Shown here piece after piece: positions 7,177 through 39,931 of a stretch of DNA of 43,566 nt. The notes under the pieces were generated by a model. The model was not told the origin of the DNA, made no database searches, and worked only from the letters and a program-made list of their open reading frames with translations. Every line of letters begins with the position of its first letter. Positions within the stretch are counted from its first letter, which is position 1. Both the position numbers and the translations under genes were made by a program. Origin of the DNA: a virus; the IMG/VR virus record IMGVR_UViG_3300046809_000182, positions 1 to 43,566 of that record; one strand, given 5' to 3'.

Positions 7177-7647
7177 ATGAGCGGACGCGGTCCGGCTCCG
7201 AAGCCGGCAGACAAGCGCCATCGGCGCAACGCCTCAGGCACTACCTCTCTGGTCCCTGACGGCATCCTTCGCGGGAGTCCGCTCCCGCGGTCCGGCTACT
7301 CTCTCCGAATCGACGGAGAGAAGCTTGACTTCTCTTGGCCCGATCAGACGAAGGCATGGTGGCTGAACTGGCGCCGTAGCGCCATGGCACAGACCTTCTC
7401 GGCATCAGACTGGGACTTTCTCCTTGAGACGGCCGTGCTTCACGCGGCCTTCTGGGACGGGGACCGGTCCGTAGCTCCTGAACTCAGGCTTCGTGTAGCG
7501 AAGTTCGGGGCGACTCCTGAAGACAGGCTCCGCCTGAAGCTCACCATCGAGAGCGATGAGCCGGCCGAAGGGCCGGAGATCAGTGACTCTCCTGGCGTGC
7601 CTCAGATGAGCGACTACCGCCGCAGGCTTGCGGCCGGCAGTGAGTGA
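7177..7647 (+). CDS. Terminase small subunit, 156 aa
   Basis: DNA-recognition subunit of the packaging motor. The N-terminus S-G-R-G-P-A-P-K-P-A-D-K-R-H-R-R-N is characteristic of P27/phiC31-like small terminases. The middle has a Trp-rich helical segment (T-K-A-W-W-L-N-W-R-R-S). AAGGGAGG precedes ATG 7177. It overlaps the large subunit by 8 bp, as expected for partners made in fixed ratio. Confidence 0.88.
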   Translation: MSGRGPAPKPADKRHRRNASGTTSLVPDGILRGSPLPRSGYSLRIDGEKLDFSWPDQTKAWWLNWRRSAMAQTFSASDWDFLLETAVLHAAFWDGDRSVAPELRLRVAKFGATPEDRLRLKLTIESDEPAEGPEISDSPGVPQMSDYRRRLAAGSE

Positions 7648-9244
7648 GAAGCTAAGGCCGCTCCCTCCGGATCAGACCCTTGGATATCGAGTCCTTGACT
7701 GGTGTCGGGACAACCTCGTTCAGCCTGATGGCGAACGCCAGGGCGAGCCGTTCGAGTTCACCGATGAGCAAGCGGCCTTCATCACACACTTTTATGCGGT
7801 CGATGACCGCGGCAAGTTTTCCTTTCGCCGCGCAGTCCTTTCCCGTCCCAAGGGATGGGGAAAATCTCCGCTCTTGGCGGCTATCTGTTGTGTCGAGCTT
7901 CTAGGGCCGGTCGTCTATGCCGGCCGGGACGAGTCTGGCGAGCCTATCGGCAAGCCTCAGCCCTCTCCCCTTGTCCAGCTTGCAGCAGTCTCCGAGGACC
8001 AGACAGCCAACACTTATGACCTGGTCCGAGAGATGCTGACTGGGCCCGTCAAGGCCAATTATCCGGATCTTGATGTAGGCCTGACGCGCACCTATTGCGC
8101 TGGGGGACAGCTCAAGCAAGTCACCTCGAACAGCACTTCCCGAGAGGGCAACCGTACAACGTTTGCTGTCCTCGATGAAACTCACTTGTGGAATCCGTCC
8201 AATGGCGGAGACAGGCTCTCAGCGGTTCTCCGCCGAAACCTTGCGAAGATGAATGGTCGCTCCATCGAGACGACCAACGCATACGTTCCCGGCGAAGAGT
8301 CGGTTGCCGAGAAGTCTGCGGAGTATCACAAGAAGATCGTTGAGGGCAAGGTTCGAGACTCGGGCCTTCTCTACGATCACATTGAGCCGCCCTTCGAGGT
8401 TGACAAGACCGATGACGCCTCGATTCGTAGGGCTCTTGCCTTCGTCTATGGAGACGCTAAGGCATGGATCGACTTCGACCGAATCATCTCGGAGATTTGG
8501 GATCCGGCAACGGATCCTCAGGACGCCGATCGCTTCTACTTCAACATGATCACGCACGCTACGGATTCGTGGCTGTCTCAGCCCGAATGGCTGGGCTGTC
8601 TTGATTCCGAGAAGGACATCGAGCCTGGCGACGTGATCACGCTCGGATTCGACGGTTCTCGAAAGCGCACCCGCGGCGTAACTGACGCTACTGCGCTCAT
8701 AGGCTGTCGCGTGAGCGATGGCCACCTATTCCAGATAGCCGTTTGGGAACAGCCCGAAGGGCCTGACGGAGAGAACTGGGAAGTCCCGATCATCGAGGTT
8801 CTTGCCGCCGTTGATGACGCCTTCGACCAATACTCGGTTGTCGGCTTCTATGCCGACCCCGCCAAGTGGGAAGGCCACGTCAACACGTGGGAAGCGAAGT
8901 ACGGGAACCGCCTTCAGGTGAAGGCTTCCGCCAATCACCCCGTTGAGTGGTGGATGGTCGGCGGACGCGCATCCCTTACGGTGCGCGCTCTCGAAGTCTT
9001 CCATAACGCGATCATTGATCGAGAGATGACGCATGACGGCTCTTTTGCCCTCACTCGCCACATGCTCAATGCCAGGCGCCGCGTAGGCCGCGCCGGCATC
9101 ACGATTGCGAAGGAACATCCTTCGAGTCCCCGGAAGATTGATGCCGCCATTGCGGCCACTCTCGCGTTTAGGGCGCGCATGGACGCAGTTGCGGCCGGCG
9201 CCACTCAGGTCAAGAAGAAGTCCAAGCGGATGTATCGCTTCTGA
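7640..9244 (+). CDS. Terminase large subunit (ATPase-nuclease), about 534 aa
   Basis: Packaging motor. The N-terminal ATPase has an atypical Walker A R-P-K-G-W-G-K-S (around residues 70-77) and Walker B F-A-V-L-D-E-T-H. The C-terminal RNase H-like nuclease shows three expected acidic positions: G-F-D-G-S, F-Y-A-D-P-A and K-I-D-A-A-I. The start is GTG 7640 (M-S-E-K-L-R) overlapping the small subunit stop, or TTG 7628; neither has a strong ribosome-binding site. Confidence 0.95.
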   Translation: MSEKLRPLPPDQTLGYRVLDWCRDNLVQPDGERQGEPFEFTDEQAAFITHFYAVDDRGKFSFRRAVLSRPKGWGKSPLLAAICCVELLGPVVYAGRDESGEPIGKPQPSPLVQLAAVSEDQTANTYDLVREMLTGPVKANYPDLDVGLTRTYCAGGQLKQVTSNSTSREGNRTTFAVLDETHLWNPSNGGDRLSAVLRRNLAKMNGRSIETTNAYVPGEESVAEKSAEYHKKIVEGKVRDSGLLYDHIEPPFEVDKTDDASIRRALAFVYGDAKAWIDFDRIISEIWDPATDPQDADRFYFNMITHATDSWLSQPEWLGCLDSEKDIEPGDVITLGFDGSRKRTRGVTDATALIGCRVSDGHLFQIAVWEQPEGPDGENWEVPIIEVLAAVDDAFDQYSVVGFYADPAKWEGHVNTWEAKYGNRLQVKASANHPVEWWMVGGRASLTVRALEVFHNAIIDREMTHDGSFALTRHMLNARRRVGRAGITIAKEHPSSPRKIDAAIAATLAFRARMDAVAAGATQVKKKSKRMYRF

Positions 9245-37125: not shown

Positions 37126-37608
37126 CTAGTGATCCCCCTTGGGCAGGGAGAGCCTTGCCCGCTGGCCCTCGGTCGGTGGTTCAGCCCCCGCCGGCCACCT
37201 GATCATCAGGTCTCCGTCCGCGGGCACCCTTGGCACGTACTGAAACGGCGGATCAGCCTCGGGGCTGTAGGTCAGAACGCTCCCCAGCGCCCTAAGGCGG
37301 TTGTGCCAGTTGTCGAGGCGCCTTTGGGCAGCCTCGGTCAGTTCGATACCTGATGCATGCCTGACGTGTGACCGTAGCCGTACGGCAGCGTCTAGCGGCA
37401 TATGGGCGCGTTCGATCTTCCAAGGGATGATGCTCTGGTAATCCACCGGAGCATTCCCGCCGAAAGGCCTACCCATATTCGTGAAACGCTGAGATACGGC
37501 TGATTTGGACACCTTGTGACGGGCAGCGATTTCTTCGAGCGAAAGCCCTTCAAAATCTCTTTCCCGCAGCAAGACATAGTCGTCAGGCAAAACGCGCGGT
37601 GCTGGCAT
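37126..37608 (-). CDS. Probable immunity repressor, HTH protein, 160 aa
   Basis: An HTH is visible at residues ~22-46 (G-L-S-L-E-E-I-A-A-R-H-K-V-S-K-S-A-V-S-Q-R). The C-terminal half contains a helical segment and Pro-rich tail. ATG 37608 has GAAGGG upstream; a longer frame from 37686 begins inside the promoter. It is next to the integrase, flanked by operator copies 7 and 8, and the only suitable DNA-binding protein linked to the repeats. It therefore probably binds the 12 operators and autoregulates. This role is inferred; the size is close to cluster A phage repressors. Confidence 0.72.
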   Translation of the reverse strand: MPAPRVLPDDYVLLRERDFEGLSLEEIAARHKVSKSAVSQRFTNMGRPFGGNAPVDYQSIIPWKIERAHMPLDAAVRLRSHVRHASGIELTEAAQRRLDNWHNRLRALGSVLTYSPEADPPFQYVPRVPADGDLMIRWPAGAEPPTEGQRARLSLPKGDH

Positions 37609-37662
37609 GTGTCTCGACCCTTCATCACTAGCCGGCGGTCCATGGCGATGTGCCTGTTGCCA

Positions 37663-37704
37663 AGGTATGGGCAAGCGGAAGGGCATGTCAAGCGTTAACG
37701 ATCG
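37663..37704 (-). promoter_or_regulatory. Repressor promoter with operator half-copy 8
   Basis: TCAAGCGTTAA plus a diverged arm at 37688-37704. Minus strand -35 TTGACA (37686-37691), 17-bp spacer, -10 ATACCT (37663-37668). Repressor binding here would give autoregulation. Confidence 0.62.
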
Positions 37705-37936: not shown

Positions 37937-39931
37937 TCAGCGCAGCTCAAAGGCAAAGCGGCCAAGGGCACGCTTAGAGAACTCTCCCGAAGGAGACGGT
38001 TCCCCTGCCAGCAGAATCCGGGGATCTGCCTCTCCCCCGATATGCACCGAGGGAATCCGCTGGTCGGAGCCCGGAAGGGGGGACCTCTCGGCATCCGTCA
38101 AGAGTCGTTCGATGCACTCCCAGACACCCCCATCCCGCCACCGTGCCCATACCGTTCGCAGCGTGGCCTTAGAGCCGTAGCGAGCGGGCATGTCGTCCCA
38201 CGTGGCGCCCGTACGGGCCTTGTGAAGGATCGCATCGACGGTCACCCTTCGGATGTCCCCGCGGACACCAGGACGGGGCATATGAGGCTCAATGACGGCC
38301 CACTGAGCATCAGTGAGAGCCGCCGGGACATCAAGACTCCTATCCCGGTACCACTGCCCAACAGAGCACTTCCCGCCAATGTGTCGAGTCTCCACCTCTT
38401 CGAGAATCGTCACCTTCAAGTCGAGAAGGGCAATGAACCTCATCTGTTCCTGAAGGCCCATCTTCGGAAGTCGCTCACGCGACATTCGCGCTAGGTCGGC
38501 CAGATCCCTTCCGCGCTGAGCCGCCGCGGACTGGTCTTCCAGCCAAGAGACAAGCTCCCCGCGCATTTTCTGAAGCTCCTCAAGCTCCTCTGTCAGAGTC
38601 TTCGTGGCTGCCTTGACGGTTTCCGCCGGCAGCCCAGCCTTCGCATAGTCAACGGCCGCAGTTACAAGCGCCTTGCTCTGCGCATCAATCTTGGATTCAA
38701 TCTCTTTCAATCGGATCTCAGTGCTCTCCTTCGAACCCTCCGCTACGCCCAACCACTCTGAAGCGATGTCTTCCAGAGCCTCCGAGCTTCCGAGGCTTTC
38801 GGAGAGGCGTGACCACACATAGCGTTCGATGGCAACGGCATCGAGCCGGCGGCAAGTGCACCTCTTCCCAGCGGGATCCGAAGGCGTGCGACCGCGACAA
38901 ATGTACGTCCGCAGGGGAACGGGCTCCGGATCAGTGCGCCCGATGTACTGGGCCCCACAGAGGCCGATGAGCCGGCCGGAGAGAGGGTAAGGCTCTGCCG
39001 AGAGACGAACTCGACCACGCGTAGGCGTGGCCTCGATCTTCCGAAGAAACTCCCGCTCCTCATCCGTCAGAAAGGACGGAACCGGGATCTGAACGGATTC
39101 TCCATAAAGGGGATTTCCATCCCGATCCTTCTTCGCGTAGCCGTCAACATTCCGATACGTTACGTGCCCCTGAAGGATCGGCTCCGAGAGGATCCTGTTC
39201 CGGAGATTGGCGTATGTCCAGAGCTTCCCCGATCGAGTCCTTTCCCCATCCGCGTTCAGGCGACGGGCAATCTCGGAGAATCGCAGGGTGCGGAGCATCC
39301 CGACAACCATGCGAACGATGTCGGCTTCATCCTCGTTCACTTCGAGAGTGGACTCCCTCTTGACGCCCTTAAACTTGATTTGCCAGCCAAACGGCGGACG
39401 GCCGCCTGTCCAGCCACCATCGTAAGCCTTCTCTTGAAGTCCGCCCTGAGTCCGCTCCCGGATGGTCTCCCACTCGGTCTCTGCATAGTCGGCAGCACGG
39501 CGGAATTCAGCCCGGCCCGCGGCGGTCGTGTTGTCACAATCCTTGTCCACCAGCGCTACGAAGATCCCGAGGTCTTCGAGAGCCCATACCCAGCGCCAGA
39601 AGGCGCGACCCTTGCGCCCGATCCGGTCCCCCTTGGGGACTACCACAACGTCAAAGGGGCGCCGGCCAAAGCCGTCTACCGTCTCGGCTTCGGCCATGAG
39701 TCGATCGAAGTCAGCGCGTTCACCCATGCCGAGAGAACCTGAAAGGCCCTCATCCTTGAAGGTCCCTACATGCTCCCAACCCTTTCGAGCAATGTAGGCG
39801 GCGTTCCGCCGTAGGCCCGAGGCAATGCCATACCCGCGCGTCTGTTCCTCGGTGCTCACGCGGTTGTAGTCCACGGCGCGGAGCGTGACCGTTGCCGTTG
39901 AGCCGGCGTAGGGCATGGCAAGATGGGGCAT
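37937..39931 (-). CDS. int: Large serine integrase with C-terminal IS5-type (DUF4096-like) domain, 664 aa
   Basis: Site-specific recombinase for integration. Catalytic domain: R-A-V-D-Y-N-R-V-S-T-E-E-Q with nucleophile S26, then G-L-S-G-S and D-R-I-G-R-K-G-R-A-F. A Recombinase domain follows (G-G-R-P-P-F-G-W, ~190-300), then a zinc ribbon with four Cys (~350-395) and a coiled coil (~430-500). Residues 539-~608 (nt 38108-38317) instead resemble the IS402/IS5 transposase N-terminal domain: L-T-D-A-Q-W-A-V-I-E-P, V-D-A-I-L-H-K-A-R-T-G-A-T-W, W-A-R-W-R-D-G-G-V-W. That extension is unusual. ATG 39931 follows GGAG; ATG 39916 is an alternative. Confidence 0.93.
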   Translation of the reverse strand: MPHLAMPYAGSTATVTLRAVDYNRVSTEEQTRGYGIASGLRRNAAYIARKGWEHVGTFKDEGLSGSLGMGERADFDRLMAEAETVDGFGRRPFDVVVVPKGDRIGRKGRAFWRWVWALEDLGIFVALVDKDCDNTTAAGRAEFRRAADYAETEWETIRERTQGGLQEKAYDGGWTGGRPPFGWQIKFKGVKRESTLEVNEDEADIVRMVVGMLRTLRFSEIARRLNADGERTRSGKLWTYANLRNRILSEPILQGHVTYRNVDGYAKKDRDGNPLYGESVQIPVPSFLTDEEREFLRKIEATPTRGRVRLSAEPYPLSGRLIGLCGAQYIGRTDPEPVPLRTYICRGRTPSDPAGKRCTCRRLDAVAIERYVWSRLSESLGSSEALEDIASEWLGVAEGSKESTEIRLKEIESKIDAQSKALVTAAVDYAKAGLPAETVKAATKTLTEELEELQKMRGELVSWLEDQSAAAQRGRDLADLARMSRERLPKMGLQEQMRFIALLDLKVTILEEVETRHIGGKCSVGQWYRDRSLDVPAALTDAQWAVIEPHMPRPGVRGDIRRVTVDAILHKARTGATWDDMPARYGSKATLRTVWARWRDGGVWECIERLLTDAERSPLPGSDQRIPSVHIGGEADPRILLAGEPSPSGEFSKRALGRFAFELR

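Follow-up and report, generated by a model that had tools for sequence, protein, structure and literature searches.

The integrase gene of the phage genome described here encodes a complete large serine integrase with an additional helical domain of the DUF4096 family, which, on the evidence of sequence comparison and a structure model, is inserted into the loop of the enzyme's terminal β-hairpin. This DUF4096-nested integrase represents a real and well-conserved variant of serine integrase architecture, and comparison with its relatives indicates that the arrangement is a family trait of a large, Streptomyces-centred subfamily of integrases distributed among phages, prophages and integrative elements. 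Serine integrases are major tools for genome engineering, and how they choose site and direction is the subject of continuing study; the best explanation for the added domain, to which we assign a probability of roughly 0.55, is that it acts as an extra (third) DNA-binding module at the outer arm of attP.

Architecture of the integrase

The DNA that was analysed (a virus record of 43.6 kb, referred to throughout as 'the window') encodes terminase, portal, tape-measure, DnaB-like helicase and repressor-like genes, a content consistent with a temperate tailed phage. The integrase gene lies on the minus strand (37937..39931), as do all of its parts listed below, and forms a single uninterrupted ORF that stays open over 664 codons, with neither a stop nor a frameshift ahead of the tail. 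A repressor-like HTH protein (phrog_3929/357) is encoded on the same strand at 37126-37686, just past the integrase 3' end. The domains of a large serine integrase are all present in the 664-residue product: a Resolvase catalytic domain (residues 19-173, 39413..39877; PF00239, E 6.8e-23), in which the catalytic Ser26 of a YNRVST motif is invariant in an alignment of 53 relatives; a Recombinase domain or 'RD' (residues 200-274, 39110..39334; PF07508, E 8.6e-9); a zinc ribbon or 'ZD' (Zn_ribbon_recom, residues 316-376, 38804..38986; PF13408, E 4.2e-6); and a coiled coil (residues 383-490, 38462..38785), predicted as two long helices spanning residues 383-431 and 436-490.

A preliminary description of this DNA had read positions 38108-38317 as an IS5/IS402-type transposase domain belonging to the integrase gene and lacking any DDE catalytic part, and had expected PF13340 to match the tail. 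The Pfam search bears this out: PF13340 (DUF4096) matches residues 539-606 (38114..38317) with an E of 1.6e-18 and 67.1 bits (cut-off 34.3), covering profile positions 1-74 of 76, and no match to DDE_Tnp_1 or another DDE catalytic part was returned by Pfam anywhere in the 664-residue protein, in which integrase strands come after DUF4096.

What has to be revised is the claim of a C-terminal fusion. About 58 integrase residues (607-664) follow the domain, and they include two conserved strands seen in the structure model, at residues 629-635 ('VHIGGEA', 38027..38047; conservation read from an alignment containing one mistyped sequence) and at residues 659-663 ('FAFEL', 37943..37957). In an AlphaFold2 model built with 53 relatives (mean pLDDT 82.9), a strand at residues 506-509 (38405..38416) precedes a helical block at 541-610, and the two later strands follow it; the inserted helices are mostly modelled at a pLDDT of 86-95, with one block of 10 residues at 76, and the DUF4096 domain modelled alone reaches 87.5. 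The zinc domain of LI integrase terminates in a β-hairpin (b13-b14) that extends its sheet (PMC3783163), with which the strands at 506-509 and 629-635 are equated by position, not by superposition. We read the end of phiC31 integrase as a short-looped version of this hairpin, and a natural relative without the domain (L025) has 'LLDVQVTLTSAVPRPCRGRKAGLPSFEVTGRIEPRLV' at that place. Flanking strands, a short-loop counterpart and a domain-free relative together argue that DUF4096 is an insertion into the hairpin loop, and not a terminal domain. Measured against phiC31 and L025 by alignment, the whole insertion covers approximately residues 519-625 (38057..38377), part of which is a conserved W(Y/F)xxxxxxVP lead-in. 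The limits of the borrowed part are set by a 133-position profile of the integrase tail, which integrases match over positions 1-133 and transposase-type ORFs only over ~32-110. A separate phage protein family of unknown function, phrog_6657 (463 positions), matches only integrase residues 533-612, at its positions 313-396, and may carry DUF4096 fused to something else.

Distribution, ancestry and selection

The preliminary description implied a singular architecture, an impression that the relatives correct: DUF4096 was found in the tails of all 48 (best E 1.5e-23 with PF13340), as it had been in 9/9 integrases of the first alignment. These relatives include integrases of the cultured-host Streptomyces phages Triumph, Janus, Haizum, Sentinel and phiHau3, and of integrative elements; among viral contigs, a single-protein scan confirmed none, and an alignment query was needed. 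A tblastn search of phages with the tail alone retrieved seven short DUF4096 ORFs that resemble IS5-type transposases but did not retrieve any of the integrases. Among 199 Streptomyces genomes, 22 matched the tail with an E no higher than 1e-22; these matches lie at 24 places (the majority full-length, the weakest few partial), and in the same genomes the insert was present at all 17 places encoding relatives of the L025 integrase, 16 of which are also tail-search matches and one of which (L149) was judged by eye. In a phylum-wide set of 396 genomes, the integrase matched in two only, both Streptomyces; the family also has a few members in Streptosporangium, Actinocorallia and Kitasatospora.

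In a tree built from the sequence ahead of the insert, L025 branches within the family that bears it (starred sets at 95-97; root unsure, with long outgroup branches), so that two changes, one gain and one loss, suffice. The pattern fits a single old gain of the nested domain, kept by nearly all descendants and lost in L025. Pooled over 16 pairs, pN/pS was 0.20 for DUF4096, as compared with 0.18 for the catalytic domain, 0.25 for the RD, 0.26 for the ZD and 0.25 for the coiled coil, values indicating that purifying selection on DUF4096 is as strong as that on known DNA-binding domains. Integrases that target dprA (L022, L077, L080, L083) are mosaic, with RD blocks 70-80% identical and the remainder 95-100%; between L022 and L077/L080 the DUF4096/tail region is also a block of 70-80% identity.

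Integration targets and exchange of the integrase tail

Genome-derived copies of the integrase run into a host gene: yccF (the L065-L081 group), dprA (L069, L077, L079, L080, L083 and also L022), pnkp (L084-L089) or rarD (L020), these genes being named by eye from translations and dprA also by PF02481. No tRNA was found near the integrase ends as an attB. With other ends fetched, attL and attR were found for eight yccF elements, four dprA elements and one pnkp element. A S. olivochromogenes element of ~9 kb, with FtsK-like, RepSA-like and GntR-like genes (named from sequence by eye), looks like an actinomycete integrative conjugative element, and on the strength of that gene set this type of integrase would serve phages and such elements alike. 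Elements integrated in yccF bring with them a complete yccF-like gene adjoining the att site (853-1302 in L157; also L158-L163), which perhaps replaces the disrupted host gene; two of them (L160 and L161, with L075 and L081) are apparently only ~3.5 kb long, with little beyond the yccF copy and the integrase.

When the 13 elements are rejoined to give their free form, the integrase ORF reads across the crossover into a terminal segment, such that the attP lies within the integrase gene (yccF: L068/L157, L065, L070, L072, L073, L075, L078 and L081; dprA: L069, L077, L079 and L080; pnkp: L085/L171; with L019/L020 as the rarD case). The free-form proteins end in '...ALRFRLEV*' (yccF), '...APIRFRVAIAA*' (dprA) and '...GIIPFRIMVAA*' (pnkp, with the other end from L171). 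Integration swaps the last ~15-25 integrase residues for host sequence: at yccF and rarD the protein acquires a short end of host origin, and at dprA and pnkp it is fused in frame to DprA or Pnkp. This exchange can be read directly in the sequences of 13 integrated relatives. For the window, alignment with L019/L020 places a candidate attP centre within the integrase ORF at 37977..38005 (GGGGAACCGTCTCCTTCGGGAGAGTTCTC on the minus strand); the terminal strand at 659-663 would then be encoded past the candidate crossover, and its role, like that of the attP itself, is putative.

An -AA end occurs in 10/16 free-form ends (not all independent, and some read from phage contigs, not rejoined elements) as against 20/464 control ORFs, a set that itself includes a few integrase ends; neither the window integrase nor those of the yccF group end in this way. 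Where present, this end resembles an ssrA-type degradation end, as in the repressor of mycobacteriophage BPs, where attP lies within the repressor gene and integration alters the C-terminus and removes an ssrA-like end (PMC4557955). Location of attP within a gene is common to BPs and to these elements, the gene being the repressor in BPs and the serine integrase here. As a caution, the phiC31 integrase, which is outside the set of elements with attP placed in the integrase gene, also ends in -AA.

The exchange may have a regulatory role. The extreme C-terminus of SprA is said, to go by the title of a 2021 paper by Abe and colleagues, to have a role in a 'molecular toggle switch'. A tentative scheme, which we hold to be more doubtful than probable, is that the subfamily combines three DNA-binding modules (RD, ZD and nested IS5 domain) with an attP inside the integrase gene, and that tail exchange is an integration-dependent switch built into the integrase. 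Were this true, a lysogen would make an integrase different from that of the infecting phage, without the terminal strand and, in many lineages, without the ssrA-like -AA end.

Symmetry of the attP arms

The sequence of attP was reconstructed by rejoining the two ends of integrated elements. In the yccF group, the two arms match at 2-10 bp from the centre, weakly near 19-22 and again at 26-32, the block at 16-25 being weak (2-4/10). At 26-32, the symmetry is 6/7 for yccF, 6/7 for dprA (L080) and 5/7 for rarD (L019), which sum to 17/21 against a background of ~0.25, with the qualification that this block was picked after viewing the yccF sites and that L019 stood in the same matrix, so that only dprA and pnkp are fully independent. 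For dprA and rarD alone, 11/14 corresponds to a binomial P of about 1e-4 at a background of 0.28. Exceptions are dprA L079 (3/7) and the yccF member L078 (2/7), and pnkp and the window score 4/7 each, both with attP centres that are unsure. Few insert-free att controls are possible for this block: phiC31 gave 2/7 (automatic centre), Bxb1 3/7 and L025 2/7 (uncertain centre), while the search patterns used did not locate the attP cores of TP901-1 and TG1, and the positions taken for A118 and phiBT1 are guesses and not verified attPs. Palindromes picked automatically as attP candidates in other free phages were mostly terminator-like hairpins and were left unused.

The Bxb1 attP has its symmetric block at 16-25 (7/10), and for the LI integrase dimer the expected contact spans 50 bp of attP and includes a zinc-domain motif at 16-24 (PMC3783163). 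The stretch from RD to ZD in the window integrase shows a gap-free alignment with Bxb1, and the outer block is therefore not accounted for by a longer linker. Taken together, the symmetry is suggestive of a nested domain that contacts the outer attP arm, beyond the 50 bp of the canonical dimer, and to that extent it favours the preliminary proposal that the added domain might 'add a DNA contact'.

Role of the nested domain

In the scheme that we favour, the integrase would carry out recombination between attP and attB by standard serine chemistry, its RD and ZD would bind the inner attP arms as in Bxb1, and the nested domain, retaining the presumed DNA binding of the transposase domain and none of its catalysis, would touch the outer arm at a distance of some 26-32 bp from the centre and thereby strengthen or extend site recognition. 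Three observations weigh against this scheme. Among relatives the net charge of DUF4096 ranges from -1 to +7, meaning that not all of them can present a strongly basic face to DNA; the loss in L025 means that the domain is not indispensable in every lineage; and searches of the PDB with the domain (phmmer, Foldseek) found nothing credible, so its DNA binding rests on family membership and on one or two members with weak HTH matches. A viral structure library gave two unnamed weak matches.

The same variable charge would suit a protein-protein module, docking a directionality factor or the partner coiled coil and steering synapsis or direction without DNA contact. Such a role is possible, if on the unlikely side: the domain sits in the zinc domain, beside the base of the coiled coil, and the phiC31 directionality factor reportedly binds via the zinc domain (PMC5814800), but elsewhere DUF4096 domains form the N-terminal portion of transposases, and the outer-arm symmetry would need another explanation. 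A further rival account is that the outer block reflects a ZD contact or the codon constraint of the overlapping integrase gene, with the inserted domain being mostly loop filler. Because attP overlaps the reading frame both arms are coding, the 16-25 block of the yccF sites is weak, and L025 manages without the domain; however, the linker between RD and ZD has the length of Bxb1's, whose symmetric block does lie at 16-25, coding constraint alone is not expected to give arm-to-arm symmetry, and DUF4096 is under purifying selection, all of which make this account improbable.

An artefact (a recent IS insertion, a frameshift or read-through into a neighbouring gene) finds a precedent in the S. 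ipomoeae integrase gene, the coiled-coil part of which is interrupted by a true IS5-type element with CTAG/GGGTGC ends (L102, ~7200-8225). That integrase, however, retains its own DUF4096 besides the IS, the window ORF is open, and dozens of relatives, both phage-borne and genome-derived, have the domain at the identical place. An artefact is refuted by this conservation, and we regard it as almost certainly wrong; a recent private fusion is likewise rejected.

Relation to known systems

The closest structural matches to the window integrase (Foldseek) are the integrases of Bxb1 (9iu2), SPbeta (9dxh) and phiC31 (9tep). Large serine integrases such as those of phiC31, Bxb1, LI/A118 and SPbeta (SprA/YokA) share with it the Resolvase, Recombinase and zinc-ribbon domains, the coiled coil and the terminal β-hairpin; they differ in that the window integrase bears an insertion of ~105 residues with DUF4096 in the hairpin loop, which is short in phiC31, and in that its relatives have attP inside the integrase ORF. 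The integrases of the Streptomyces Arquatrovirinae (Triumph, Janus, Haizum, Sentinel, phiHau3) have the same domain order with a diverged DUF4096, which in the three members searched individually was detected with a score under the Pfam cut-off; they are ~27-30% identical to the window integrase, with best matches (28-30% identical) covering up to 94% of the length, and L019 is nearer (51% identical). IS5/IS402-type transposases share the 70-residue N-terminal domain, whereas in the integrase the DDE part is absent and the domain lies inside another enzyme.

Large serine recombinases bearing DUF4368, in which the added domain has been linked to multi-targeting (Durrant et al., PMC10083194), likewise combine a serine recombinase with an added domain of unknown function, although a different one. 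Later candidate selection in that study kept only proteins of 400-650 aa, and DUF4096 is unmentioned; most members of the present family exceed 650 aa and hence fall outside the filter of that screen. A search of the literature, outside of which lie most subscription journals, found no paper that names DUF4096 alongside serine integrase or serine recombinase; two papers do name DUF4096, and to judge by their titles they deal with unrelated subjects.

Implications

A natural and widespread subfamily shows that a loop of the serine integrase scaffold tolerates a transposase-derived module. The subfamily is a source of new orthogonal integrases, with targets in yccF, dprA, pnkp and rarD, and it makes testable whether an added DNA-binding domain can extend att recognition. 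The att site within the integrase gene, a side finding that may matter more than the nested domain, likewise offers a testable idea: that of a recombinase that edits its own C-terminus.
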